Origin: a virus
DNA length: 64,000 nucleotides
Strand: one strand, 5' to 3'
IMG/VR virus record: IMGVR_UViG_3300030116_004360
Coordinates: 26,478 to 90,477 of that record
Part shown: piece by piece, positions 17,880 to 53,717 of the stretch
How the letters are laid out: each line of letters starts with the position of its first letter
Position numbering within the stretch: the stretch's first letter is position 1
Notes under the pieces: generated by a model
Database searches by the model: none
What the model saw: only the letters and a program-made list of their open reading frames with translations
Told to the model about the DNA's origin: nothing
Translations under genes and position numbers: made by a program

Positions 17880-18072
17880 CTGTTCTCCACTCCTTTATTG
17901 TTTCTAATAACATCTTAAAAAAACCATCATCTCTTCTTTGTTTGATAGATAATTCAAGAATAGTTTTTTCTAACTCATCAATCCTAACATTATATTTAGT
18001 TTCAATACTTTTCAATTTTTCTTCTAGTTCACTAACTCTAGTTGCTAACTTATCATCTTTTCTTCCAAACAT
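17872..18072 (-). CDS. Coiled-coil protein
   Basis: 66 residues: a short basic start (MFGRKDDK) and a heptad-patterned coiled coil (LATRVSELEEKLKSIETKY onwards). The start is the ATG overlapping the polymerase stop (TAATG); a GTG 9 bases upstream is less likely. It is probably an oligomerising partner protein; function unknown. Confidence 0.5.
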   Translation of the reverse strand: MFGRKDDKLATRVSELEEKLKSIETKYNVRIDELEKTILELSIKQRRDDGFFKMLLETIKEWRTDE

Positions 18073-18971
18073 TAAAACCACTCATCCAACGTCTTTTGTC
18101 TAATATCTAACTTAACAGGATTAATTTCCCATTCCATAGCGTCAAATACAGGTTGTGATTTCTTTACAATCACATCTGCATAATGCAAGTAATTTATACT
18201 TACTTTAAATCTATCAATCAATTCCATCAATTTATCATATGTTGGTGCGGCCAACCATTCTAATTTTTTAGATAATCCAGTTATCGGATGAATCCATGAT
18301 AAATTACCCGGTTTAATTTTAATAAAATGAACTGAATCAGGCATTTCATTAAAGTTACTATAATACCATAATGCCCCTGAAATATGTGAACCAACAGAAG
18401 GACTTTTCTTATCTAAAGTTGTAAAGAAAGTTTTACTAGTCCCACATTCACAATTAGGCATATCTATGATATTTTGTATTGAATATTGACTTTTACAATC
18501 TGGACATTTAACTGATAATCTATTTTCTCTAACTCTCTTCCAATCAACTAATTCTTTCAAAGATATATCACCATCCTTAATTTCATTATATCTCTTTCTA
18601 CAAAAGTCATTTATTTCACCTTTAGTATTTTCAGAAGCCCACATTTTCAATACTTTAGTTTGGTGTTCTTTTGCTAATTTAGTTTCAGAAACTCTTTTAG
18701 CCATAAAACCAGTCATAGTAAATTTAGGTTTGTCTAGATAAACTCCATCTTCCCATGAAACAAGACCAGCATTTCTATTCTTCTTAACTCCAACTCCTAA
18801 AGATTGATAATACTTCTCAAATTCTAACTGAACAGGGTGTTCATCAAAACCTAATAAATTAGGAAAAAGAGATTGAACATGAGCATTTAAATGTTCACAT
18901 AACTCCTTTGCTTCATTAACAGAAGGAACAGTTACATAAATTGAATCTGTATGTCCATAAACTACTTTCAT
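18072..18971 (-). CDS. polB: DNA polymerase B, C-terminal fragment (split PolB)
   Basis: 299 residues. It begins right at polymerase motif C: VVYGHTDSIYV (Tyr5 to Asp9). The usual YGDTDS has His for the first Asp; the second Asp, the stronger metal ligand in RB69-type enzymes, is kept. Thumb sequence follows (KKNRNAGLVSW, MTGFMAKR) with a likely zinc site CPDC...CEC. The last residues, RQKTLDEWF, are a good PIP box for the clamp. The ATG lies in the 3' end of the other fragment (ATGA overlap) with its own GGTGAT ribosome site, so the split is real rather than a sequencing error. Confidence 0.9.
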   Translation of the reverse strand: MKVVYGHTDSIYVTVPSVNEAKELCEHLNAHVQSLFPNLLGFDEHPVQLEFEKYYQSLGVGVKKNRNAGLVSWEDGVYLDKPKFTMTGFMAKRVSETKLAKEHQTKVLKMWASENTKGEINDFCRKRYNEIKDGDISLKELVDWKRVRENRLSVKCPDCKSQYSIQNIIDMPNCECGTSKTFFTTLDKKSPSVGSHISGALWYYSNFNEMPDSVHFIKIKPGNLSWIHPITGLSKKLEWLAAPTYDKLMELIDRFKVSINYLHYADVIVKKSQPVFDAMEWEINPVKLDIRQKTLDEWF

Positions 18972-20665
18972 TTCATAATCACCATCCTTTTTACTTCTAA
19001 TGCGGCACTTCTAATTGCTTCTCTAGCAGAAGCAGTAATTGATGCTGCTAAATCAATATCTCCCCAACCAAAACCTTGTTTACCAATTACACCATAAAAA
19101 GAAGCAGAAAGGCGTTTTACTGCCATTTGATTTACAAACCACTTATTGTATTCCATAGTGTTGCCCTGTTCTCTCGCAAGATACATTCGACGCTTATATT
19201 CATTTCGTAGTTCCTTTAATTCTAAAACACTTTTAGGTAAAAGACCTAATTTATCTGTTTTATAGTATCTCATAACTTTTGATTTTGTTGGCGAAAAATC
19301 TCTAGGTGTAGCAATATTGACCGCAAATTCAGTTGGTTCTTTTGATTTAGTTTCCCATGAAATATTTCTAGCAATCATCATTGATGGATATAGCCCTGCA
19401 AAATCTAAAGCAGCGACATTTAAATGTAAACCATGTGTTTTTTCAGTTGTCGGGTCATAAATCATAGCACCATCATAATTAATCTTTTGAACTGACTTAT
19501 CTCCTGTTGGAGCCTTCCAAGTTGCATTTCTCATAAAATATACTGCACCCATCATACTTACATACATACATGATTTAAATGGGGCTTTTAGAATCCTTTG
19601 AAGGTAAATAATTGCATCACTACAAAAATTAGTTTCATCAAGTTCTACTAATAACTCCACATCTATTTTAGCATACTCAAGATAAGTTTCTGTATCTTCT
19701 AACCAACCTCGACGGAAAAATTCATTCTTATCAGGAAATTTTTCACTAACTAATTTCTTTTTGCCTAAAGCCATTTCTGCTATATCATCTAAAGCCATTG
19801 AAGGTAATGTTCCTTTTTGAGCATCGCTCCATTGTCTTTCAAATGCTAAATCTAGATTAAGAGTTAATCGTCCACGAATAGGTTGTGAAATAGCATAATA
19901 GTCATCAACCGCTTTAGTTGCTTTTACACCATCATTCCAAATTACACCTTTAACTTCATTATATGGTGATAATCTTCTAGGGTCTAAATCATTAGCGATA
20001 CATCTATGAATTAACTTAGGTAAATCATACTTTAGACCAAACCATGCTAATAACATATCGGGGTCTTTATCTTCAATATAAGTTAAAAACGCATCAAGCA
20101 TTTCTTTTTCAGAATTAAAGACAGACATATGAGCGACTTCTTTTGTAGACATTTTAAATCCATTATACGGGTCTTGGTTAGGAAACCATATCCATTGATA
20201 GTATTGCTTATCATAATTATCATAAGCAACAATACAAGTAATTGCGCCATCATACAAATCATCAGCCATCCATTCCATATCCCAATACATTTTACGCATT
20301 TTAAATTCAGGAATGTCTTTTAATTCATCAACACAGTATCTATCTATAATTGATACATCTGCTTCATAGGTTTGCATAAAACAATCTCTTGCTTTATACA
20401 TATCATTAGGTGAATGAACATATACCTTTTTCAATAATTGACCTTGAAGATTGACCCAATTACCATTTTCATATTCAAATGGAAACCATAACTTAGCCTT
20501 TCTACCTTGAAAGGTATGGGTTACTTCATAACCATCTACTTCTGTTTCAATAGCGCGAATAAAGAAATATGGTCTAAAATTTTCGACCTTTGTTTCCACT
20601 CGATTATTTTCAGAGTCACGCCATCTTAAATTAATATTCTTATCATTGGTATAACAAATATCCAT
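18968..20665 (-). CDS. polB: DNA polymerase B, N-terminal fragment (split PolB)
   Basis: 565 residues. Exonuclease motifs: Exo I YWDMEW (Asp129, Glu131), Exo II AWFGLKYDLP, Exo III YAKID. Polymerase motif A is DFAGLYPSMM (about 421-430) and motif B is KRLSASFYG (about 517-525). The protein ends just before motif C, which is on the downstream gene. The two together make one full replicative family B polymerase. The ATG at 20665 is preferred over a TTG at 20692, because AAAAGGAG lies about 9 bases upstream of it. N and C pieces probably assemble as a heterodimer. Confidence 0.92.
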   Translation of the reverse strand: MDICYTNDKNINLRWRDSENNRVETKVENFRPYFFIRAIETEVDGYEVTHTFQGRKAKLWFPFEYENGNWVNLQGQLLKKVYVHSPNDMYKARDCFMQTYEADVSIIDRYCVDELKDIPEFKMRKMYWDMEWMADDLYDGAITCIVAYDNYDKQYYQWIWFPNQDPYNGFKMSTKEVAHMSVFNSEKEMLDAFLTYIEDKDPDMLLAWFGLKYDLPKLIHRCIANDLDPRRLSPYNEVKGVIWNDGVKATKAVDDYYAISQPIRGRLTLNLDLAFERQWSDAQKGTLPSMALDDIAEMALGKKKLVSEKFPDKNEFFRRGWLEDTETYLEYAKIDVELLVELDETNFCSDAIIYLQRILKAPFKSCMYVSMMGAVYFMRNATWKAPTGDKSVQKINYDGAMIYDPTTEKTHGLHLNVAALDFAGLYPSMMIARNISWETKSKEPTEFAVNIATPRDFSPTKSKVMRYYKTDKLGLLPKSVLELKELRNEYKRRMYLAREQGNTMEYNKWFVNQMAVKRLSASFYGVIGKQGFGWGDIDLAASITASAREAIRSAALEVKRMVIMK

Positions 20666-20672
20666 ATTATTA

Positions 20673-20822
20673 CTACTCCTTTTTAGTATCAAGATACCTT
20701 TTAAATCTAAAAGTATTATCTAGTAGGGTAAATAAACAACCTGCACAGGCATTATAATGAAGAACTCCCATGACTCTATCTTTGTCTCCACAAATATCAC
20801 ATTCTACATTTTTATATTCCAT
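20673..20822 (-). CDS. Small zinc-finger protein
   Basis: 49 residues with CDIC (9-12) and CAGC (26-29), a short zinc ribbon followed by a basic tail (FRFKRYLDTKKE). It lies between the clamp and the polymerase genes, starting 2 bases after the clamp gene stop. The site AAAAGGAG for the polymerase is in its 3' end. It may bind nucleic acid or the polymerase; function unknown. Confidence 0.55.
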   Translation of the reverse strand: MEYKNVECDICGDKDRVMGVLHYNACAGCLFTLLDNTFRFKRYLDTKKE

Positions 20823-43375: not shown

Positions 43376-43408
43376 ATTATTTCCTCTTTAAGTATTTATT
43401 TGAATAGG

Positions 43409-43482
43409 TGGGTCTAGAGGGATTTGAACCCCCGACCAACGGATTAAAAGCCCGTCGCTCTACCTGACTAAGCCATAGACCC
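43409..43482 (-). tRNA. tRNA-Lys (anticodon UUU)
   Basis: Complete cloverleaf on the minus strand: acceptor GGGTCTA/TAGACCC (7 bp), D arm with GCTTAGTCAGGTAGAGC, anticodon arm ACGGG-CTTTTAA-TCCGT with anticodon UUU, and T arm GGGGGTTCAAATCCCTC. The gene is followed by CCT, so CC but not the final A of CCA is encoded. UUU reads AAA/AAG, codons that are very frequent in this AT-rich genome. Probably processed from the long leftward transcript. Confidence 0.95.
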
Positions 43483-44437: not shown

Positions 44438-44441
44438 TAGG

Positions 44442-44523
44442 TGCAGGTAGTAGGATTTGAACCTACGAAGCATTTTGCACCGGAACTTAACTCCGGCTCC
44501 TTTGACCACTCGGATATACCTGC
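44442..44523 (-). tRNA. tRNA-Leu (anticodon UAA)
   Basis: Class II tRNA on the minus strand: acceptor GCAGGTA/TACCTGC, anticodon arm CCGGA-GTTAAGT-TCCGG with anticodon UAA, variable arm with GCA-AAA-TGC, T arm GTAGG-TTCAAAT-CCTAC. It is followed by ACCT, so CC but not CCA is encoded. It reads UUA, the commonest Leu codon here. Confidence 0.94.
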
Positions 44524-45888: not shown

Positions 45889-45978
45889 ATGACTCAATTC
45901 AACGCATATGGTTGTGCTTTGTTCAATCCCCTGATTTTGAACAGGAGTGGCAAAGGCCATCTTTTTGTGCTAAGTTAA
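45889..45978 (+). CDS. Leaderless 29-residue peptide or small RNA
   Basis: ATG 29 bases downstream of the TATATAAAA box, opening a 29-residue frame (MTQFNAYGCALFNPLILNRS...). The stop lies in the loop of a hairpin TTTGTGCT/AGCACAAA (45964-45987), which is followed by a T-rich stretch, so promoter, frame and terminator form a unit. The RNA also has GTTCAA/TTGAAC. Either a leaderless micro-gene or a small RNA; no homologue known. Confidence 0.35.
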   Translation: MTQFNAYGCALFNPLILNRSGKGHLFVLS

Positions 45979-46005
45979 AGCACAAAGATATTTTACATAA
46001 AAATC

Positions 46006-46236
46006 TCATCTATTATTCCTCATATTTTTCATATGTTGTATTAATTGCTCTGACGTTAAAACAGTTTTACGTCGTGAATGAGTGGGTATTTCCATAATAT
46101 GAGCAGGATATTCTCTACCACATGAACATCTATCCCATTTTCTTGAATAACTTAAAATTGATAATGTTTTATGGCATTTAGGACAAACATACTTAATTGT
46201 TGGTTGATTATGCTTTAAACGTGGATTAACTCTCAT
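46006..46236 (-). CDS. Zinc-ribbon protein
   Basis: 76 residues. CPKC (19-22) and CSC (about 37-39) zinc-ribbon ligands, a strongly basic sequence, and a C-terminal helix (TSEQLIQHMKNMRNNR). GAGGGAAGTAGT precedes the ATG. Likely nucleic-acid binding; may be a transcription regulator. The next minus gene upstream ends at a terminator. Confidence 0.55.
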   Translation of the reverse strand: MRVNPRLKHNQPTIKYVCPKCHKTLSILSYSRKWDRCSCGREYPAHIMEIPTHSRRKTVLTSEQLIQHMKNMRNNR

Positions 46237-46254
46237 ACTACTTCCCTCAATAAA

Positions 46255-46291
46255 TAAAAAAAAGGGAGGTCGGGGGAATTAACCCCCAACC
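46255..46291 (-). terminator. Hairpin-plus-T-run terminator
   Basis: On the minus strand GGTTGGGGG-TTAATT-CCCCCGACC (9-bp stem, one G-U) at 46291-46268 is followed by TCCCTTTTTTTT. It lies just after the stop of the 46336-46818 gene and before the zinc-ribbon gene. It is the clearest intrinsic-type terminator in the window. Confidence 0.75.
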
Positions 46292-46335
46292 CCCCAAAAG
46301 TGCGATAAAGGCACAGAACATCAATTGCTGACTAT

Positions 46336-46818
46336 TCACTCCTCCTCGTCGTGAACAGGCATTCCATCGGTTAGACCTTCTAGAGTTCCATCCCATGTTT
46401 CAGCCTTAAATGCCTTAGTCATCGCTGAACGGGCTTTCTTGCCCATATACGATGCATATTCTGTTGCGTCTGCAAATGCTCCTCCACCTGCTTTTCCATG
46501 CTTCAAGATAACTGCTTGAATTGTGGAATCATGGTTGAAAAAGTTGCGAGAAGCATCTTCAACGGTTTGAACAACCGAATCAACAACTACTCTTACAGAA
46601 GCAGGTAAAGACGGTTTAATACCGCGTCGAACCGGAGAACCCGGCATTCCGCGAATAAGTGACTTAATACTGTCCCAAACCCTATCTCTCTGTTCCTCAT
46701 TCTCGCTTCCCAAAGTTATCTGGAAATTAAGAACTTGAGCCAACTGGTCATTAACTGCATCAGTGGCTATAAATTCATTCAATTCAATTACTTTACTATT
46801 CCAATCTTGTGTATCCAT
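46336..46818 (-). CDS. Paralogue 1 of the KHGK-GGG / WDGTLE family
   Basis: 160 residues. Shares with the gene at 49249 the segments WxxxVxxL/V, GMPGSPVRRG, LPASV, ILKHGKAGGGAFADATEYA and AETWDGTLEGLTDGMP. Helical with an acidic tail (HDEEE). The two genes lie on opposite strands about 2.4 kb apart. Family unknown. The ATG at 46818 follows GAAGGTGAAAAA. They may be DNA-binding or coat-type small proteins, but nothing in the sequence shows it. Confidence 0.6.
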   Translation of the reverse strand: MDTQDWNSKVIELNEFIATDAVNDQLAQVLNFQITLGSENEEQRDRVWDSIKSLIRGMPGSPVRRGIKPSLPASVRVVVDSVVQTVEDASRNFFNHDSTIQAVILKHGKAGGGAFADATEYASYMGKKARSAMTKAFKAETWDGTLEGLTDGMPVHDEEE

Positions 46819-46902
46819 TTTTTTCACCTTCATTTGTGTTTTCGTTCTGCGCCTTTATCGGCAAAATATCCATATTCAAACCCCATATAAAGGGTTGCAT
46901 AG

Positions 46903-46924
46903 CAAAGTGCAACCATATGGTTGA
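46903..46924. promoter_or_regulatory. CATATG operator, degenerate copy
   Basis: CAAAGTGCAACCATATGGTTG: the left arm and CATATG core are present, the right ACTTTG arm is missing. GATACACATGATACACATG follows. It lies upstream of the leftward paralogue gene. Confidence 0.45.
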
Positions 46925-47041
46925 TACACATGATACACATGATTCTTAAAATTATTTTCTCAGATTCGATTTTTTGTTACCATTCTTATTTTCACACATT
47001 CATTAATACCATATGATGTGACTTTGGCGTATATCTTGTGC

Positions 47042-47124
47042 GGGTCACAATGGAGGGTTTTACCGGATTACCCACGAAATTTACTAAACGCCTTTGAGCG
47101 TCGTTCATTTCTCCATTGTGACCC
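47042..47124 (+). ncRNA. Multi-branched RNA closed by 14-bp stem
   Basis: GGGTCACAATGGAG (47042-47055) pairs perfectly with CTCCATTGTGACCC (47111-47124). Inside are two hairpins, GGT-TTT-ACC and ACGC-CTTTGA-GCGT. A half operator (CATATG at 47010-47015 with ACTTTG at 47021-47026) and GTATAT stand upstream on the plus strand. No credible gene within. Strand not certain because the stem has no G-U pairs. Confidence 0.5.
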
Positions 47125-47163
47125 ATAAGGCCGTTTATCATCTCCTTTTACCTCCTTTCATAT

Positions 47164-47358
47164 TTAGTCCTCATTCAATTCACATTCGTCATTATTGCAC
47201 ATTCCAGATTCGTCATCAACATATGTATTACAGAATAGGCATAATAGGTCATCATAAGGCCCTATTTCCTTTATTTTCTTATTTTCAGGCTCAACATGGT
47301 TCCTAATTTGATTCAATAGTTCTGCTTCCTCTGGTGTTAGTTCGTGATTATCACTCAT
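47164..47358 (-). CDS. Small acidic zinc-binding protein
   Basis: 64 residues from ATG 47358 (MSDNHELTPEEAELL...). Ligands CLFC and CNNDEC at the C-terminus (about 40-60). A TATA-like TTGATATAA lies 25-30 bases upstream, so translation is probably leaderless from this ATG; an in-frame ATG at 47379 overlaps the TATA box. It shares the operator at 47396 with the divergent gene at 47468. Confidence 0.5.
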   Translation of the reverse strand: MSDNHELTPEEAELLNQIRNHVEPENKKIKEIGPYDDLLCLFCNTYVDDESGMCNNDECELNED

Positions 47359-47395
47359 GTTAAACAGTAATTGCAGCATTATATCAAGATAGCCT

Positions 47396-47425
47396 CAAAG
47401 TATGCTATCATATGGTAATACTTTG
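47396..47425. promoter_or_regulatory. CATATG operator 1
   Basis: Arms CAAAGTAT and ATACTTTG are perfect inverted copies around CATATG (47409-47414). TTACCTTAGAAAT follows on the plus side and a TATA-like TTGATATAA on the minus side, so it serves divergent genes (47164 and 47468). Confidence 0.75.
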
Positions 47426-47467
47426 TAATTACCTTAGAAATACTAAATCTTGTGTTATTTATAACTT

Positions 47468-47671
47468 ATGGAGGATAAGCAAAGCATGGATATGACCACA
47501 AATACACAAGAGCCACCTATTGTAGTAGAACCGCAATATACCATCGAAGTCGGACACGATAGATACCAAAACTTGATTATCAAGAGGTTACGTGTTTCAG
47601 GCGATGATTTAGAGCAGGTTTTTATACAATTGGAACAGGCATTGGCGGATTTTAAGATGATTAAAGAATGA
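47468..47671 (+). CDS. Hypothetical small protein
   Basis: 67 residues, with beta segments (QYTIEVGHDRYQNLIIKRL) and a C-terminal helix. Leaderless or nearly so: the ACCTTA box stands about 38 bases upstream, with no ribosome site. Its TGA overlaps the next ATG. No family recognised. Confidence 0.5.
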   Translation: MEDKQSMDMTTNTQEPPIVVEPQYTIEVGHDRYQNLIIKRLRVSGDDLEQVFIQLEQALADFKMIKE

Positions 47672-47796
47672 CCAACCAATCAAGGGGGCATTATGATTGG
47701 TGGGAATTTATTCCAGATGAAGGACTTGAAATCCCTAAGAATACTAAACAATCTAACAACACTACCACTACGCAACGTGACGGTAAATCCTCTTAG
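47668..47796 (+). CDS. Small hypothetical protein
   Basis: 42 residues (RGHYDWWEFIPDEGLEIPK then a Thr/Asn-rich tail). ATGA overlap with the upstream gene suggests co-translation. Its end lies in a short dyad TAGGTC-GT-GACCTA (47794-47807). Function unknown. Confidence 0.45.
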   Translation: MTNQSRGHYDWWEFIPDEGLEIPKNTKQSNNTTTTQRDGKSS

Positions 47797-47897
47797 GTCG
47801 TGACCTAGGACGAAAAATGATAATACATAGTTATTATCGGCGGTAGATTACTTTTTCAGTGATATAATTAATTTTATATCACTTTAAAAGGTAATTA

Positions 47898-47926
47898 CAA
47901 AGTATTACCATATGGTAACAACTTTC
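47898..47926. promoter_or_regulatory. CATATG operator 2
   Basis: CAAAGTATTAC-CATATG-GTAACAACTTTC; the core TTACCATATGGTAA is a perfect 14-bp palindrome. GTTACCTTAAG follows at 47930, upstream of the 256-residue gene. Confidence 0.75.
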
Positions 47927-47971
47927 GTCGTTACCTTAAGAAACATAATAAAATCATTTACTTTGATTAAC

Positions 47972-48742
47972 ATGAGTGTAACCTATAACAGAACAATGAG
48001 TATCTATTACGATATTACCGACAGTCCATTGGATAATCCAACTATGAAGCGTAAGTTTGTGGCAGACCTAAGAAAGGTTGGTATTGCGGTCCACAATAGA
48101 TATGCTTACAATTCAGAGTTGAGGGAAGAAAAGTATGGTTTTACTGAAACTATGAAGGGTTCAGATAACTATGCTACTATCGTAAATGGTAATGAAGTAT
48201 TTTCATCATGGAATGAAAAGACCGTCATTAAATTGACTAACAATCTTATTGCGGCATTAGAGGATTCTGATGTTGAAATGCAGCAAACTGAATCAAAAAA
48301 GAAAGTGAAGAAATGGTCCGCTATTCAAGGAAAGTATTGTTATTTCGACGTTAGTGAAAAGTTAGATGGAACTCAAAACTGGAATCAAGATACAGTGATT
48401 GGTAAGCACTTACAATACGGTTCTCCTCAAAATGGTGACTATGTGACTATGAAGGTAGAATTTGAATTCAATTATGGTGAAATGAAAGTTAAGTTCGACA
48501 TCAATTGGGACACTAAAACAGTCCAAAAGAAAGCAGATATTGAGGCTATGGTGGTAGATGTTCCATTGAATGATATGGGGCATATTCAGAGAATTATTGA
48601 GAGAATTGCGAGTTACAAGAAGAATGGTGTAAATGTGGATAATCCGACAATTGAATGCCACTTTGATGCTAAAACAGAGAGTAGAAGCGAATGTGCGCCG
48701 GATATTATCGCAAAGGTGCGAGAAGCGCGTAAAACCGCATAA
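47972..48742 (+). CDS. Hypothetical protein
   Basis: 256 residues, alpha/beta. Features: a basic stretch (ESKKKVKKWSA), a beta-rich middle (YVTMKVEFEFNYGEMKVKFDI) and a helical end. The ATG at 47972 lies 41 bases after the ACCTTA box; an in-frame ATG at 47912 lies inside the operator and is not used. A second ATG is at 47996. It is the largest gene in the cassette region. No family recognised; it could be the regulator of the array, but no HTH is evident. Confidence 0.55.
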   Translation: MSVTYNRTMSIYYDITDSPLDNPTMKRKFVADLRKVGIAVHNRYAYNSELREEKYGFTETMKGSDNYATIVNGNEVFSSWNEKTVIKLTNNLIAALEDSDVEMQQTESKKKVKKWSAIQGKYCYFDVSEKLDGTQNWNQDTVIGKHLQYGSPQNGDYVTMKVEFEFNYGEMKVKFDINWDTKTVQKKADIEAMVVDVPLNDMGHIQRIIERIASYKKNGVNVDNPTIECHFDAKTESRSECAPDIIAKVREARKTA

Positions 48743-48757
48743 TTCCCCTATGTAAGT

Positions 48758-48769
48758 CGCCTTCGGGCG
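48758..48769 (+). terminator. UUCG hairpin after the 256-residue gene
   Basis: CGCC-TTCG-GGCG, a 4-bp stem with a stable UUCG tetraloop, just after the stop and before operator 3. Confidence 0.55.
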
Positions 48770-48783
48770 CATTAGGATAACTA

Positions 48784-48811
48784 CAAAGCGTTACCATATG
48801 GTATTACTTTT
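48784..48811. promoter_or_regulatory. CATATG operator 3
   Basis: CAAAGCGTTAC-CATATG-GTATTACTTTT; ATACCTTAGAATATA follows, 28-35 bases before the ATG at 48850. Confidence 0.75.
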
Positions 48812-48849
48812 GGAATACCTTAGAATATATTTTAAATATATATATTATC

Positions 48850-49116
48850 ATGATTAATTGGGCCGATGAAGTAAAACAATACAAAGAACAAGAAAGAGAC
48901 GGATATACTCAAACTGTGGAGGAATGGGTTGAATCTTTGGTTCCTGTTTACTATGTCGATTTAATCGGTGAATACGTAAGATTATGTTTAATGAATGAAT
49001 TAATTCCTAAATCATACGTTGGGATAGAAATATGGAAGTTTATGCAATCAAAGATATTTGACGAATATTTAGAATTGTTTTACAATGAACTTCATGTTCA
49101 AAATGAAGAGGAATAA
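48850..49116 (+). CDS. Hypothetical acidic protein
   Basis: 88 residues, helical, acidic (EQERDGYTQTVEEWVESLV; end QNEEE). ATG about 30 bases after the TATA-like box with no ribosome site, so probably leaderless. No family recognised. Confidence 0.5.
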   Translation: MINWADEVKQYKEQERDGYTQTVEEWVESLVPVYYVDLIGEYVRLCLMNELIPKSYVGIEIWKFMQSKIFDEYLELFYNELHVQNEEE

Positions 49117-49133
49117 ACCCCTCTCAGGTTTAT

Positions 49134-49161
49134 CAAAGTAACACCATATGGTAATACTTTC
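49134..49161. promoter_or_regulatory. CATATG operator 4
   Basis: CAAAGTAACAC-CATATG-GTAATACTTTC, an 11-6-11 layout. ATTATCTTATAAATA follows as the TATA box for the 49249 gene. Confidence 0.75.
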
Positions 49162-49248
49162 GTCATTATCTTATAAATACAGAATCAATTGCATTTTATT
49201 GGTCTTAGAGGGGCCAAGAACGAATGAAACCCAAAGGAGATGAATAAA

Positions 49249-49779
49249 ATGGTAAGCGATTATAGTATGGATGATGAAGCATGGAATAGACGAGTTAGTA
49301 AGGTTGAAGTTTTCCTTCAATCTAATGATGTTGGAGATTTATCAACGGTTCTTGAGTGGAATATCAACACAGGAAACAATGATTCTGATAACCGTAAAAG
49401 GTATTGGACTTCAATTACTACTCTATTAGGAATGTTGCCTAATAGCCCAATTCAGCGTGGTCGAGAAACTGACCTACCTGATGCAGTTGCTCAAGCAATT
49501 AGAGATGTAAAGGCTATGGTAATAGAAAAGGAGACAGAGCATTATAACAATGGTATGGCTACTTTGATTGAAAAACACGGTAAATCTGGCGGGGGTCTTT
49601 ATGACTCTGCTGAAGAATATGCTGAAAAGATTGGAAAGGCTACGGCTACCCGATTGACTCGGTATTACCGCAATCACGATAAAAAGCGTGATGGCCCTAC
49701 ATGGGATGGAACACTGGAGAATGGCCTTCCAACGGTCAATTACCCAGTAATCAGCATGGAGGCTGAAGAAGAGGAATGA
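49249..49779 (+). CDS. Paralogue 2 of the KHGK-GGG / WDGTLE family
   Basis: 176 residues. Shares with the 46336-46818 product GMLPNSPIQRG, LPDAV, LIEKHGKSGGGLYDSAEEYA and GPTWDGTLENGLP. Acidic tail (EAEEEE). Unlike its neighbours it has a long leader (about 75 bases past the TATA box) and a strong AAAGGAG site; ATG 49249 is preferred over 49240, which is too close to it. Function unknown; a strong ribosome site suggests high expression. Confidence 0.6.
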   Translation: MVSDYSMDDEAWNRRVSKVEVFLQSNDVGDLSTVLEWNINTGNNDSDNRKRYWTSITTLLGMLPNSPIQRGRETDLPDAVAQAIRDVKAMVIEKETEHYNNGMATLIEKHGKSGGGLYDSAEEYAEKIGKATATRLTRYYRNHDKKRDGPTWDGTLENGLPTVNYPVISMEAEEEE

Positions 49780-49800
49780 GGTCGTTCAACGGCCCCTCTT

Positions 49801-49846
49801 CCCAATACCCCAATGACCCACTTAATTGTGGTGAGGGGTGTTATGG
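49801..49846 (+). terminator. Long imperfect hairpin
   Basis: CCCA...ACCCC pairs with GGGGT...TGGG around an AT-rich loop, shortly after the stop of paralogue 2 and before operator 5. Likely terminator, in the place where other cassettes have UUCG hairpins. Confidence 0.45.
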
Positions 49847-49854
49847 GTTAATTA

Positions 49855-49884
49855 CAAAGTATTACCATATGGTAAGGAACTTTG
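49855..49884. promoter_or_regulatory. CATATG operator 5
   Basis: CAAAGTATTAC-CATATG-GTAAGGAACTTTG; GAACCTTAATTATA follows about 32 bases before the ATG at 49923. Confidence 0.75.
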
Positions 49885-49922
49885 TTCACGAACCTTAATT
49901 ATACGTCAATTAAGTAGTTATC

Positions 49923-50276
49923 ATGAACCCCGAAACAATTGAGAACTTCTTGGACAGAAACGGACTTTATGATGCATTTACTCCTTATGAGGTTGAATCT
50001 GATTATCAAAGAAGTTGCGGATTTGTTTCTCGGATTGTAGGTGATTTAGCGGGTTGGCTTGAACATAAAGAAAACTGTGCTTATGCATGGATTATCTGGC
50101 ATATTGGAAAGAATGAAGTTCGTAAGTTTGTTACACTTGAGCATCTTTATGGACAACGTGAGGAATATGTTAAAGATGCTTTAGAGGGTGATTTTGGGGC
50201 TATGTTGTTAGTATTACAGGCAGAAACAATGATTCAAGAAATAAATGAATTAAGACATATAGGGAGTAGTGATTAA
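49923..50276 (+). CDS. Hypothetical protein
   Basis: 117 residues, mainly helical (SCGFVSRIVGDLAGWLEHK). The ATG stands about 30 bases after the ACCTTA/TATA box, so it is probably leaderless. First gene of a four-gene cassette. No family recognised. Confidence 0.5.
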   Translation: MNPETIENFLDRNGLYDAFTPYEVESDYQRSCGFVSRIVGDLAGWLEHKENCAYAWIIWHIGKNEVRKFVTLEHLYGQREEYVKDALEGDFGAMLLVLQAETMIQEINELRHIGSSD

Positions 50277-50278
50277 GA

Positions 50279-50362
50279 ATGAGAAATAGATGTAGTGAAT
50301 GTAATGTATTTGTGAGTAAGAACGTAATAATGTGTTATAAGTGCAGGTGTGTAAATGAGTGA
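50279..50362 (+). CDS. 27-residue zinc-finger peptide
   Basis: CSEC (5-8) and CYKCRC (19-24) in only 27 residues. GGGAGTAGTGATTAAG lies upstream of the ATG. Its end overlaps the next ATG (ATGAG). Function unknown. Confidence 0.4.
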   Translation: MRNRCSECNVFVSKNVIMCYKCRCVNE

Positions 50363-50468
50363 TGAAATTAAAATGAATAAGGAAGAATTGGAACGATTGG
50401 CGTTTTATCGCTCAATGGGGCTTAATTTTGAAGCAGTTAAGATTTACAAAGGAAGTGAAGAAGAATGA
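50355..50468 (+). CDS. Small helical protein
   Basis: 37 residues (EIKMNKEELERLAFYRSMGL, then an acidic end). It overlaps the genes on both sides (ATGA with the next). Function unknown. Confidence 0.45.
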   Translation: MSDEIKMNKEELERLAFYRSMGLNFEAVKIYKGSEEE

Positions 50469-50644
50469 GTAATTTTCAAAGAAGGCATTATGAGTTAATT
50501 GCTATGCAATTAGCCCAATGTGATGCGGATGATTCAGTTATTGAAGCGTTGATTAAAATGTTCAAATGGGATAATTCTCGATTTAATCCTCAAAGGTTCA
50601 AGGATGCAATTCAGAATCATAAGACCCGAACTCCTGTTATTTAG
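50465..50644 (+). CDS. Phage-type small helical protein
   Basis: 59 residues. HYELIAMQLAQ, then KMFKWDNSRFNPQRFKDAI, matches a small conserved phage/plasmid family with the FxxDNxRFxxxRFxxA pattern, function unknown. Last gene in the cassette; stop at 50644. Confidence 0.5.
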   Translation: MSNFQRRHYELIAMQLAQCDADDSVIEALIKMFKWDNSRFNPQRFKDAIQNHKTRTPVI

Positions 50645-50659
50645 CAGGGTTCTACTCGT

Positions 50660-50693
50660 CAAAGAGAATAGAACCATATGGTGCTATACTTTG
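50660..50693. promoter_or_regulatory. CATATG operator 6
   Basis: CAAAG...CCATATGG...ACTTTG over 34 bp (longer spacers). AACCATAAAG follows, 33 bases before the ATG at 50730. Confidence 0.7.
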
Positions 50694-50729
50694 AATGAAC
50701 CATAAAGTCCGGTCTAATAGCATATAAGT

Positions 50730-50969
50730 ATGAGGCACATACTAATGATTGCAGAAATGATTGAAAATATGAGCGAAAGTGAAAAGATTACATTTCAATA
50801 TATATTTGAAATGGGAGATAGTCGTGACTTTGATAAGCCGTTTAAATCTGTTGATAACTTCCTTAACGCAATATATTCTCTTATGGATATACATAATGAA
50901 GCGTTGGTTGAAGAACAAATGAATATTGTTGATGATTACTTTGATGATTATAATGAACCTATCATCTGA
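50730..50969 (+). CDS. Hypothetical acidic protein
   Basis: 79 residues, helical, acidic at the C-terminus (NIVDDYFDDYNE). The predicted start site is at or near the ATG (TATA-like GCATATAAG just upstream is too close). No family recognised. Confidence 0.5.
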   Translation: MRHILMIAEMIENMSESEKITFQYIFEMGDSRDFDKPFKSVDNFLNAIYSLMDIHNEALVEEQMNIVDDYFDDYNEPII

Positions 50970-50975
50970 TTATCT

Positions 50976-50985
50976 CCCTTCGGGG
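50976..50985 (+). terminator. UUCG hairpin after the 79-residue gene
   Basis: CCC-TTCG-GGG tetraloop hairpin just after the stop at 50969, read from the plus strand. Confidence 0.5.
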
Positions 50986-50994
50986 AACTTTACT

Positions 50995-51026
50995 CAAAGT
51001 TCGTTCCATATGGTATTAAAACTTTG
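50995..51026. promoter_or_regulatory. CATATG operator 7, between convergent genes
   Basis: CTCAAAGTT and AACTTTGAG are perfect 9-bp arms around CATATG (51007-51012). Both neighbouring genes point toward it and end in UUCG hairpins, so it does not look like an ordinary promoter site. Confidence 0.75.
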
Positions 51027-51038
51027 AGAGATAATATA

Positions 51039-51048
51039 CCCCGAAGGG
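51039..51048 (-). terminator. UUCG hairpin after the minus-strand gene
   Basis: CCC-TTCG-GGG when read on the minus strand, just past the stop of the 51059 gene. A plus-strand T-run (TTTTTTT) adjoins it, so it could also end plus transcripts. Confidence 0.5.
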
Positions 51049-51058
51049 TTTTTTTAGG

Positions 51059-51352
51059 TCAGATAGGGCATCTATCTAACCATTCTCTAACACTCTCTTC
51101 AACAGAAGCATTACTCTCTATTTCATCAATCAAGTATTCAATCGCATTAAAGTTCTCAACAGTCATCAAATGAAATTCATTGAAACCATAATGCTTCATA
51201 TTATCAATAAGTCGTTGAAGATTTCTTTTTTCCCTTTGAACCATTACTCCACCTACATTTGAATCAATTATATCATCTGGCATTCGCCATCTATTGACTC
51301 TAACTTCAACCATCTTGTTAAACCAGTTATTGTATTCGGTTTCGGAACTCAT
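51059..51352 (-). CDS. Hypothetical protein
   Basis: 97 residues, mixed, basic middle (VQREKRNLQRLIDNMKHYG). On the minus strand TTACCTTACATAATA lies about 33 bases before the ATG, next to operator 8, so probably leaderless. No family recognised. Confidence 0.5.
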   Translation of the reverse strand: MSSETEYNNWFNKMVEVRVNRWRMPDDIIDSNVGGVMVQREKRNLQRLIDNMKHYGFNEFHLMTVENFNAIEYLIDEIESNASVEESVREWLDRCPI

Positions 51353-51387
51353 GTTATATCTAATTTTGAGTATTATGTAAGGTAACT

Positions 51388-51427
51388 CTCAAAGTTTATT
51401 ACCATATGGTATTAGATTAACTTTGAG
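51388..51427. promoter_or_regulatory. CATATG operator 8
   Basis: CTCAAAGTT...CCATATGG...AACTTTGAG. On the minus side TTACCTTACATAATA follows, for the 51059-51352 gene. On the plus side is the end of a 45-residue minus gene. Confidence 0.75.
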
Positions 51428-51437
51428 ATAAAACAAA

Positions 51438-51451
51438 GACCCCGAAGGGTC
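51438..51451 (-). terminator. UUCG hairpin overlapping a stop codon
   Basis: GACCC-TTCG-GGGTC on the minus strand, at the stop of the 45-residue zinc gene (its TGA is at 51450-51452). Confidence 0.55.
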
Positions 51452-51587
51452 AATGATTATGCGTCTTGATACGCATTAAGAGGATATATTCCTCTGGAGT
51501 CAAATACTTATGACGTAGTTCATCTACGCATCCTTCACACATCTTATTTCCAGTTGTAAACATTTCATCAAGGCAATCATCGCACAT
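51450..51587 (-). CDS. Small zinc-binding protein
   Basis: 45 residues. CDDC (2-5) and CEGC (17-20), then helical LTPEEYILLMRIK. On the minus strand AACCTCATAAAG lies 30-36 bases before the ATG, after operator 9. Probably leaderless. Function unknown. Confidence 0.5.
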   Translation of the reverse strand: MCDDCLDEMFTTGNKMCEGCVDELRHKYLTPEEYILLMRIKTHNH

Positions 51588-51624
51588 AATTATCGGATTT
51601 CATCATCTTTATGAGGTTTATTCA

Positions 51625-51654
51625 CAAAGTTCGCACCATATGGTAACTACTTTG
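51625..51654. promoter_or_regulatory. CATATG operator 9, divergent
   Basis: CAAAGTTCGCAC-CATATG-GTAACTACTTTG. Plus side: ATTACCTTAAATAATTG opens a cassette without an evident gene. Minus side: the 45-residue zinc gene. Confidence 0.75.
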
Positions 51655-51664
51655 AAATTACCTT

Positions 51665-51900
51665 AAATAATTGAATTAATTCAATATTAGTGCAAGGAAG
51701 ATACATTAGCAATACCACCACCAAGACCAAACGCACTTCGGCATCTTAACGAGATAATGCCTCATAATCGGCCAATTATGGGGATGCACCTTTAGAAACG
51801 GGATTTTGTCGCAATCGTCACTGTGAGGTCACTGTGACGCTTTTCAATGTCTTTGTTCGGATTCCTAGGATTCGCACTAACTTGCACCCATTTGGGTTTT
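51665..51900 (+). ncRNA. Operator-driven cassette without a gene, likely ncRNA
   Basis: After operator 9 and ACCTTAAATAA comes about 200 bases without a credible frame, GC-richer than its surroundings. It holds a 9-bp hairpin CCTCATAAT-CGGCCA-ATTATGGGG (one U-G, plus strand), a GCAT/ATGC stem just before it, and a repeated GTCAC/GTGAC dyad at about 51817-51839. Expected start at about 51690. It ends before operator 10. A small GTG frame of 19 codons exists but has no support. Confidence 0.5.
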
Positions 51901-51903
51901 ATT

Positions 51904-51932
51904 CAAAGTTAATACCATATGGTAATGCTTTG
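51904..51932. promoter_or_regulatory. CATATG operator 10
   Basis: CAAAGTTAATAC-CATATG-GTAATGCTTTG. CTACCATACAA follows, with TTTATACT, ahead of the 51980 gene. Confidence 0.7.
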
Positions 51933-51979
51933 AAACTACCATACAACAATTGTTTATACTATTAATAGTGAGGTAAAAT

Positions 51980-52384
51980 ATGCTGGAAATATATGATTAT
52001 ATAGAAGAAAGAGTGAATGAAGAAAATGAATACGTTAATGAGGAATACGGTGAAGATATGATATTTTGTATTGATACAATTTATGAGGATTTTCAGGAAC
52101 AAGTGCCTGAACATTTAATTATTAAATACAACTTAGATGAATATTGTCCATTAGAAACAAGTAATAAAGATGCAATTGTAGTGTTAAAGGATTGTTTTGA
52201 TGAATGGGTTAAAGAAACTAACCCGTTTAGTTGGGACGGTATTGAGCGCAAAATACGAATATATAGAAATGATATGGAAGATATGCGAAGAACTCAAGCG
52301 GCTGAAATGGGTTGCCATGACTATTATGGCGGTAATTATCATCAATCTGATTATGTTGATAATATGTGGTCTAGCCGTTATTAG
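51980..52384 (+). CDS. Hypothetical acidic protein
   Basis: 134 residues, acidic, helical N-terminus (LEIYDYIEERVNEENEYVNE). GTGAGGTAAAAT precedes the ATG, so it has a weak ribosome site as well as an operator. C-terminus with His/Tyr/Asn-rich stretch (HDYYGGNYHQSDY). No family recognised. Confidence 0.5.
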   Translation: MLEIYDYIEERVNEENEYVNEEYGEDMIFCIDTIYEDFQEQVPEHLIIKYNLDEYCPLETSNKDAIVVLKDCFDEWVKETNPFSWDGIERKIRIYRNDMEDMRRTQAAEMGCHDYYGGNYHQSDYVDNMWSSRY

Positions 52385-52394
52385 ACCAAATTGT

Positions 52395-52406
52395 GCCCTT
52401 CGGGGC
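52395..52406 (+). terminator. UUCG hairpin after the 134-residue gene
   Basis: GCCC-TTCG-GGGC tetraloop hairpin about 10 bases past the stop. Confidence 0.55.
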
Positions 52407-52415
52407 CATATATCT

Positions 52416-52445
52416 CAAAGTTACGTCCATATGGTATTAACTTTG
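52416..52445. promoter_or_regulatory. CATATG operator 11, between convergent genes
   Basis: CAAAGTTACGTC-CATATG-GTATTAACTTTG, with extra CT and CA outside. Genes on both sides point toward it and are closed by UUCG hairpins, as for operator 7. Confidence 0.75.
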
Positions 52446-52453
52446 CAAAAATA

Positions 52454-52463
52454 CCCCGAAGGG
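52454..52463 (-). terminator. UUCG hairpin after the minus-strand gene
   Basis: CCC-TTCG-GGG on the minus strand, just past the stop of the 52465-52878 gene. Confidence 0.5.
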
Positions 52464-52464
52464 A

Positions 52465-52878
52465 TTAATTGTGTAAATCATACTTAGCCCCCTTGTGGTA
52501 TTCTTCAACCATTAACTGAGTAATGTAATTATTTTCATACAAATATTCAAGAGGCTCATAATTACTCAATAAACGAAGTAATACATCAATTTGAAGTAAA
52601 AGTTCTTGATTAAATGTAAGTCCAAGAGTCCTCAATTCATTATCATAGTGCATACTAATCAAACTCTTTTTTTGGTCACAATCAATACTAGTTTCAGAAC
52701 CACATCTATAACACCTATAAATATCAAATCCCCATGCGCCAAACTCATCAGAATCAATTTCACAGTTTTCATATTCCCATTTATGTTCACACTCCTCAAT
52801 AGGCATAATAGGCCCAATGTTCCTAAATGCCGTTTCAGCGTTCTTATTCAATTCTTCCAAAACTGTTGGTATCTCCAT
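52465..52878 (-). CDS. Zinc-binding hypothetical protein
   Basis: 137 residues. A zinc site in the N-terminal half: CEHKWEYENCEI ... CYRCGSE (about 30-62), then helical C-terminus. Its ATG lies in a sequence (AGTATATAACTATGGAG) that is repeated in mirror position at the divergent gene 52987. Probably leaderless. Function unknown. Confidence 0.5.
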   Translation of the reverse strand: MEIPTVLEELNKNAETAFRNIGPIMPIEECEHKWEYENCEIDSDEFGAWGFDIYRCYRCGSETSIDCDQKKSLISMHYDNELRTLGLTFNQELLLQIDVLLRLLSNYEPLEYLYENNYITQLMVEEYHKGAKYDLHN

Positions 52879-52916
52879 AGTTATATACTAAAATGCCAGT
52901 AATATATGGCAATTCT

Positions 52917-52948
52917 CAAAGTTATTACCATATGGTATTGTAACTTTG
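52917..52948. promoter_or_regulatory. CATATG operator 12, divergent
   Basis: CAAAGTTATTAC-CATATG-GTATTGTAACTTTG. ATACCTTATAT follows on the plus side, and TTGCCATATAT on the minus side, each about 30-36 bases before an ATG. Confidence 0.75.
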
Positions 52949-52986
52949 AAAATAATACCTTATATCCTGTATTTGAGTATATAACT

Positions 52987-53466
52987 ATGGAGTTACCCGA
53001 ATTGAACATCAATAAGAACGCAAGAAGTAACAGTCAATGCACATTACATATATGCAGGACTGGTAAAAAGAAGCAATATTACACCCTATATCATGAAGGT
53101 GTGCATATTAACGATTATGGTGGTAATTACTTTTGTGATTATAATGGTAATCTGTCTTATAATTTTGAAAAGGCTGTTAAAAAGGCTATTGTTAGATTTA
53201 ATGAAATAGTAGATTGCGGATACTGGTTTTCTGTTGGTATCGAATATCATGAAGAACCTCGATTAATATATAATAGAGTTGAAGCCTTTGGTATGACTTT
53301 TAAAACTGCTAAATCTGGCAAAGTTATGTGGGGTATCGCTAATAGCGATTTTTGGAATCATTGGAAAAAGGACAAGCAAAAGGTCAAAGATGCAGGTTTT
53401 TGGGTCAAAAAGGTTGATTATCAATGGATGGTATTTTGTAAGATAGAGGCTCAATATGCCGATTAA
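52987..53466 (+). CDS. Hypothetical protein
   Basis: 159 residues, alpha/beta. Basic/aromatic N-terminal half (RTGKKKQYYTLYHEGVHIND), then FGMTFKTAKSGKVMWGI. The ATG 52987 lies about 35 bases after the ATACCTTATAT box; in-frame upstream ATGs lie before the operator. No family recognised. Confidence 0.5.
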   Translation: MELPELNINKNARSNSQCTLHICRTGKKKQYYTLYHEGVHINDYGGNYFCDYNGNLSYNFEKAVKKAIVRFNEIVDCGYWFSVGIEYHEEPRLIYNRVEAFGMTFKTAKSGKVMWGIANSDFWNHWKKDKQKVKDAGFWVKKVDYQWMVFCKIEAQYAD

Positions 53467-53468
53467 AC

Positions 53469-53480
53469 GCCCTACGGGGC
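53469..53480 (+). terminator. UACG (UNCG-type) hairpin
   Basis: GCCC-TACG-GGGC, UNCG-class tetraloop, just past the stop of the 159-residue gene. Confidence 0.55.
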
Positions 53481-53488
53481 CTATATCT

Positions 53489-53508
53489 CAAAGTTAAGTC
53501 CATATGGT
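53489..53508. promoter_or_regulatory. CATATG operator, degenerate last copy
   Basis: CTCAAAGTTAAGTCCATATGG: left arm and core, no ACTTTG arm. A further half copy lies at 53587-53597 (CATATG followed by CTTTG). These mark the right edge of the array. Confidence 0.5.
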
Positions 53509-53717
53509 TGTTGATACGCAGTTAAACACCTTATCAGGTTTTTATAGGATATGACTCGATACATCTCGCAATATCATATTTCCAACCATATGCTTTGCAT
53601 CCGAAAATTTTTTTTATTTCAATTAATCGTTTTTATGCATTGTTGGGTCAAAAAACTTAGTATCTTCACCCACATCTATATAACCTCAACGCTCATAGCC
53701 CATTTGTAGGGTTTAGT
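53507..53717 (+). promoter_or_regulatory. Non-coding gap with terminator and TATA box
   Basis: A short hairpin ACCT-TATC-AGGT followed by TTTTTA lies at 53528-53544 (terminator). TCTATATAA at 53675-53683 lies 35 bases before the ATG at 53718, so it probably drives that gene. A half operator is at 53587. Otherwise AT-rich without a gene. Confidence 0.5.

Follow-up and report, generated by a model that had tools for sequence, protein, structure and literature searches.

We analyzed a 64,000-nucleotide stretch of the IMG/VR record IMGVR_UViG_3300030116_004360 (positions 26478-90477 of a record of 90,477 bp; hereafter the window), in which small genes alternate with copies of a short site centered on the palindrome CATATG. 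A sequence-only reading of this DNA had proposed one regulator acting on many operators or, as a second idea, exchange of gene cassettes at the repeated sites. Our best reading is that the region is a cassette-shuffling array, which operates in the manner of integrons or dif modules yet qualifies as neither. We consider it probable that a dedicated site- or structure-specific activity shuffles the cassettes, including the version in which a host recombinase does so. This view builds on what can be read in the sequences themselves: the sites, their conservation across the family, an anchor at one array end, breakpoints in the core, covarying stems at the cassette ends, and a regular promoter geometry.

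In the mechanism we propose, exchangeable cassettes would be arrayed at the boundary of two divergent transcription modules in a magrovirus-like genome. A cassette runs from one CATATG to the next and carries a small, mostly orphan gene, usually with its own promoter (often leaderless) and often with a hairpin after the gene. Strand exchange within the invariant palindromic CATATG would join any two cassettes in either orientation. Cassettes would be moved, inserted, and inverted, each end keeping its own arm and spacer. A unique AT-rich anchor fixes one end of the array.

The array and its sites

All twelve CATATG-core sites described earlier were found again, as were the four half copies (at 46903, 47010, 53489, and 53587, with cores at 46914, 47010, 53501, and 53587). 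Nine of the twelve sites have perfect CAAAG/CTTTG arms; those at 47909 and 49145 end in CTTTC, and the one at 48795 reads CTTTTG. The variable arm-to-core spacing is borne out by the site sequences. CATATG occurs 46 times in the window, and the arm pattern with a CCATATG or CATATGG core occurs only within 45.9-53.6 kb. A pattern scan found no site with arms and core in the remaining ~80 kb of the 90-kb record. The sites do cluster where the earlier span placed them, but its left boundary was too short: an additional half-site, CATATGGTTGTGCTTTG at 45905, pushes the array further left, and the orphan gene at 46336-46833 thus lies inside it. The features are as follows (coordinates in the window; strand given where one applies; sites and half-sites assigned from sequence).

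45905..45921, plus strand: distal-end half-site CATATGGTTGTGCTTTG, the left array limit (also from its orientation relative to the anchor)
46336..46833, minus strand: orphan array-associated protein, copy 1, 165 aa; its family occurs in 37 of the 39 records with arrays
46903..47026: full site, CAAAGTGCAAC followed by CATATG and, further on, CATATG followed by atgtgACTTTG, split by an armless mini-element of ~90 bp (cores 46914 and 47010)
47396..47425: junction site, core 47409
47468..53466: small genes of the cassettes, the majority orphans and most under an ACC-box promoter of their own (from open reading frames, searches, and promoter geometry); examples on the plus strand at 47972-48742, 48850-49116, 49923-50276, 50730-50969, 51980-52384, and 52990-53466, and on the minus strand at 51059-51352, 51450-51587, and 52465-52878
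47898..47926: junction site, core 47909, right arm CTTTC
48784..48812: junction site, core 48795, right arm CTTTTG
49134..49161: junction site, core 49145, right arm CTTTC
49240..49779, plus strand: orphan array-associated protein, copy 2, 179 aa; confident AlphaFold model, no match in PDB
49855..49884: junction site, core 49866
50660..50693: junction site, core 50675
50995..51026: junction site, core 51007, convergent genes on either side
51390..51425: junction site, core 51403
51625..51654: junction site, core 51637
51904..51932: junction site, core 51916
52416..52445: junction site, core 52428, convergent genes on either side
52917..52948: junction site, core 52929, divergent genes on either side
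53489..53592: half-site CAAAGTTAAGTC followed by CATATG, then an armless mini-element of 86 bp, then the next CATATG
53587..53620, plus strand: array anchor CATATGCTTTGCATCCGAAAATTTTTTTTATTTC, the unique fixed end on the side of the structural genes; the same element stands at one array end in more than 50 contigs

Judged from its sequence, each site is a back-to-back junction of two cassette ends. Read inward, an end has the form CATATGGTyyy..RCTTTG..yyy'ACC, a short, imperfect inverted repeat whose loop contains CTTTG, and two such ends back to back give CAAAG-n-ACCATATGGT-n-CTTTG, the apparent "operator". Read inward from the core, 700 unique half-sites give the consensus CATATGGT(A/T)..RCTTTG, with an arm-to-core distance of 4-13 bp (most commonly 6, 8, and 7). 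An ACC usually follows the arm and forms the inverted repeat with the GGT adjacent to the core; the intervening bases differ between cassettes and yet they pair. Perfect end stems of at least 6 pairs were observed 145 times for 17 expected (the maximum in 200 permutations was 31), and the excess holds separately at gene 5' ends (57 vs 6.7) and gene 3' ends (33 vs 4.2). Covariation of this kind points to base pairing, or to copying of the inverted repeat, rather than to a plain protein operator. When a site is folded as single-stranded DNA, it can adopt a single long hairpin spanning CATATG or, alternatively, a hairpin on each side.

One end of the array carries a unique fixed attachment site, the anchor CATATG(G)CTTTG..AAATTTTTTT. 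It consists of CATATG(G)CTTTG followed by the AT-rich AAATTTTTTTATTT or a similar sequence, and is present in most contigs that reach that end. The pattern occurs in 55 contigs, in nearly all of which the sites stop at it; in the window it lies at 53587. The opposite end is more variable. In anchor contigs, the cassette end beside the anchor nearly always has CAAC before CATATG and is more uniform than other ends.

Many cores also contain armless inserts of ~30-150 bp with CATATG on both sides, some of which are whole hairpins. Both states of a site, occupied and empty, are seen in 3300030061_001386 and 3300025086_000036. The window has two such mini-elements, at 46914-47010 and 53501-53587, and relatives of the second are found at other junctions in other viruses. 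Families of armless mini-elements recur in different contexts (loci L007, L021, L058, L063, L083, and others), and from their sequences these elements may be mobile. Separately, tiny acidic open reading frames of ~6-11 codons (MFDDDE, MFDEED, MFEDDE, VDEDEEEEQE, and similar), most of them preceded by a strong GGAGG, occur within or close to magrovirus arrays, and several of them are in mini-cassettes of ~100-126 bp (L014:7674-7865; L039:1079-1190 and 2804; L005:8000; L050:4142-4236; L060:2648-2819; L062:1496).

Cassette exchange and distribution among relatives

When related contigs are compared, the order of blocks changes exactly at the sites. We traced both junction ends for 42 re-joined junctions, not all of them independent events, in 28 contig pairs. 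The clearest pair, 3300030060_005658 and 3300030708_001584, shares about 90% identity and differs by one moved and one inverted cassette: counted from the anchor, one has the order c1-c2-c3-c4-c5-c6 and the other has c1-c3(inverted)-c4-c5-c2-c6, with every half-site staying with its own cassette. Inversion of c3 requires recombination between two sites that have only about seven bases (CCATATG) in common. At re-joined ends, the spacer between arm and core has an identity of 0.67 and the same length in 77% of cases, for 0.27 and 18% at random ends. Within arrays, 19.3% of local alignments end at most 10 bp from a core, for 3.7% expected, a 5-fold excess. Since half-sites are retained, spacers are kept, and alignment ends cluster at the core, the core is the point of exchange. 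This accounts for the invariance of the core and for the independent variation of the spacers on its two sides. The earlier suggestion of cassette exchange is thereby strongly supported: between relatives, the sites are conserved and the intervals between them differ in order, orientation, and content, with junctions at the core.

We scanned IMG/VR viral contigs for a strict version of the site pattern, using the reversed pattern as a control. The scan returned 105 stretches in about 90 contigs, mostly of 30-100 kb. The site was present in all 51 related records tested, and the control gave 0 matches. Applied to 84,980 prokaryote species genomes, the same pattern returned four stretches, of which one is an array and the others are single sites. 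Because the viral scan was positive and the prokaryote scan nearly empty, we regard the site as a feature of this virus group. The Poseidoniales (Marine Group II), which magroviruses infect, rank among the most abundant archaea in surface ocean waters; the strict pattern was in no Poseidoniales genome of the scan. We rejected a chromosomal counterpart in the host, as none of the four stretches comes from this order and the sole array resembles magrovirus DNA. That array is on NZTP01000027.1, a contig of an 'Altibacter' metagenome-assembled genome that serves as a GTDB species genome, and its presence there is probably a binning error. One viral record, IMGVR_UViG_3300021958_000021 (184,733 bp), has two different arrays ~95 kb apart with diverged copies of the flanking DNA, and by its sequence looks like two joined magroviruses.

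Cassette genes, source genome, and candidate enzymes

Arms are present at 228 of the 252 5' ends of genes and at 224 of the 252 3' ends, and they occur whether a junction is tandem, convergent, or divergent. Hence, the site is not a promoter operator in the simple sense, and the motif is not tied to promoter-side positions as the operators of a single regulator would be. The earlier proposal of one regulator on many operators therefore does not stand as the main explanation; a regulator may additionally bind the site. The promoter module noted earlier is supported as a component of the cassette, separate from the site, and the ACC(T/A)TA box and its spacing from the ATG are real. Over 143 cassettes, the distance from the ACC box to the ATG peaks sharply at 30-31 bp, which implies leaderless transcripts in this largest class. 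Among cassettes with a longer distance, 45 of 67 have a Shine-Dalgarno-like motif. Cassettes oriented towards the anchor outnumber those facing away from it by about two to one (123 vs 60). Searches of the array proteins with Pfam, PHROGs, and PADLOC gave essentially no matches, with a solid Pfam match in one of 61 cassette gene families.

The orphan array-associated protein is the product of the most frequent cassette gene (91 of 251), with one to four copies in most of the records that have it. Its AlphaFold model is confident (pLDDT 93). A fold search with this model found no match in PDB and only one viral protein in BFVD. No conserved catalytic set was found in the family, and phage GenBank records gave no match. 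The family is too variable to be traced in viral contigs by profile or protein search. The protein could be a factor that binds the sites or simply a common passenger. Another candidate is an ERCC4-type nuclease, present in 28 of 28 records, which could act on extruded hairpins, although genes of this kind also serve in ordinary repair. When the open frames of the record were scanned for motifs, no tyrosine-recombinase boxes were found; a single HUH-like string turned up, in a frame located among the structural genes.

The minus strand of the window encodes archaeal replication genes and the plus strand encodes the structural genes. The record has a G+C content of about 0.31 with a skew switch. 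Pfam matches in the window include the ERCC4-type nuclease, a PD-(D/E)XK nuclease, ThiF, and a pyrimidine-dimer glycosylase; reading of the sequence adds PolB, RFC, PCNA, ligase, TFB, chaperonin, and ribonucleotide reductase. Magroviruses have genomes of 90-100 kb, 31.5% G+C, two opposed gene clusters, and no identifiable integrase or transposase (PMC10768690). The record shares with the order Magrovirales its size, G+C content, opposed modules, archaeal replisome, and lack of an integrase, and its sequence fits a magrovirus-like virus. The cumulative GC skew reaches its minimum near 46-48 kb, at the start (distal end) of the array, where transcription diverges; on these sequence features, a replication origin within or close to the array (46000-48000) is possible. 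Genes for tRNA-Lys(TTT) (43407-43482, minus strand) and tRNA-Leu(TAA) (44440-44523, minus strand) adjoin the distal array end. The family B DNA polymerase is apparently split between adjacent open reading frames at 18968-20692 and 18072-18971 (minus strand; 18072-20692 together), the second beginning just ahead of the YGHTDS motif.

Alternative explanations and known systems

The activity behind the exchanges could reside in the array-encoded orphan family, in the conserved ERCC4-type nuclease acting with the viral ligase on extruded hairpins, or in a host recombinase. A more specific version, towards which we are inclined to be skeptical while holding it a serious possibility, is a new class of recombination, in which hairpin-ended cassettes would be cut and re-joined in CATATG by non-canonical virus-encoded machinery, without a tyrosine, serine, or Y1 recombinase. 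Such machinery might be the array-borne protein of orphan fold or a structure-specific ERCC4-type nuclease together with the viral ligase.

Several observations weigh against a dedicated activity. No tyrosine recombinase (PF00589) was found in any of 51 viral records, although all 14 control genomes were positive; there was likewise no serine recombinase (PF00239) in the 51 records and no Y1 transposase (PF01797) in 28. The arm-to-core spacing of 4-13 bp is unlike that of known tyrosine-recombinase sites, and a strictly arm-dependent recombinase would not explain armless mini-elements sitting in cores with a duplicated CATATG. The contigs are metagenomic and partly related, which bears on the independence of the re-joined junctions, and the rearrangements were deduced from relatives rather than observed within one population. 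Finally, some recombining sites share 10-15 bp, which leaves room for microhomology-driven recombination. Repeated operator or promoter elements, incidentally shuffled by homologous or microhomology recombination, are indeed the explanation that we rank second after a dedicated activity, and we consider it unlikely. It would account for the promoter at cassette 5' ends, with its ACC box 30-31 bp before the ATG, and for the 7-15 bp of shared sequence that the core supplies, and it has precedents in the PeSL and HGTV-1 elements (PMC3950731) and the HF2 promoter repeats (PMC8707807). It would not lead one to expect arms as frequent at gene 3' ends, and at convergent junctions that need no promoter, nor junctions in the core instead of the arms, half-sites that keep their own spacer length, an inversion between sites sharing about 7 bp, or a unique anchor.

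A less probable alternative is that the sites are of the Xer type, with an 11 bp arm, CATATG as a 6 bp spacer, and another 11 bp arm, and that a host tyrosine recombinase uses them in a pdif-like manner. This 11+6+11 bp layout is exactly one of the commonest forms, crossover falls in the 6 bp center, and the absence of a viral integrase from our searches would be no obstacle, as none would be needed. The pdif modules of Acinetobacter plasmids, whose shuffling is documented, likewise cross over in 6 bp spacers (PMC13141974). The spacing nevertheless varies over 4-13 bp, the arms are symmetric CAAAG/CTTTG rather than XerC and XerD arms, the Poseidoniales genomes in the scan lack the strict pattern, and covarying end stems are not a Xer feature. 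The doubt already voiced about a strict Xer site is thus upheld, the spacing being variable and no Xer-type gene having been found in the virus. Two further explanations were rejected. An operator array for one regulator, with cassette differences arising from ordinary gene gain and loss only, would fit the regular module of site, promoter, and gene; it is very improbable, being contradicted by the re-joined junctions, where order swaps and an inversion retain the half-sites, by the arms at gene 3' ends, and by stems that differ and covary within one genome. Assembly artefacts, i.e., chimeric contigs joined at short repeats, have the least chance of all. The contigs do come from metagenomes, and the 184.7 kb record resembles a joint of two magroviruses. 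However, the identity at junctions is about 7-15 bp, below the usual assembly k-mers, and the swaps recur in several lineages and different metagenomes.

The array can be compared with several known systems. Like pdif modules, it has genes in exchangeable modules, short bounding sites, and crossover within a 6 bp center; pdif modules rely on a host recombinase and encode none, and no recombinase was found in the virus either. In contrast to the fixed 28 bp Xer/dif site, the array has a variable spacing, an invariant and palindromic center, symmetric arms, covarying end stems, and an archaeal virus as carrier. Moreover, pdif modules need alternating C and D sites, whereas single magrovirus cassettes can move or invert. 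Integrons, of which examples in phages exist (PMC9892861), resemble the array in being linear series of mostly orphan cassettes with one fixed end (the anchor being attI-like) and structured sites with covariation. The differences are the lack of an integron integrase, or any PF00589 protein, in the 51 records, and the position of crossover: an attC site stands at one cassette end and recombines near its outer box, whereas here crossover is in the middle of the site and each cassette keeps half-sites at both ends. Magrovirus cassettes also carry their own promoters and lie in both orientations. A serine-recombinase invertible or cassette system would bring a resolvase or invertase gene, for which the PF00239 search was negative. 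The ends of IS200/IS605 transposons have subterminal imperfect hairpins, as do both ends of the cassettes, but magrovirus ends are inverted rather than in the same strand sense, and the Y1 (HUH) transposase is the PF01797 family that gave no match.

Among phages and archaeal viruses, the closest precedents are the PeSL elements, the HGTV-1 motif, and the HF2 repeats. The PeSL elements were reportedly described by Arbiol in 2010 as mobile regulatory cassettes of T4-type phages. They comprise a promoter and an inverted repeat between small orphan genes and are tied to genome shuffling, and a similar repeated promoter motif with a suggested role in shuffling is reported in HGTV-1 (PMC3950731). 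Those elements are on the promoter side and are thought to act through homology, whereas the magrovirus motif, despite its promoter geometry, bounds both cassette ends equally, and exchange is confined to the 6 bp core with little other homology. The halovirus HF2 is, similarly, an archaeal tailed virus with repeated intergenic sequences, which are proven promoters; these are conserved in place and orientation among relatives, and the part of PMC8707807 available describes no cassette shuffling. Repeats, cassettes, and recombination are not mentioned in the magrovirus paper PMC10160649; the original magrovirus paper was not covered, and earlier notice there is possible.

If our reading is correct, a cassette platform in many magroviruses would explain the turnover of their orphan, probably host-interaction, genes. 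Archaeal viruses would then join the known carriers of integron-like shuffling, and the platform points to a recombination activity that has so far gone unrecognized. The site, the anchor, and the end stem would also give a precise handle for mining many viral accessory genes.

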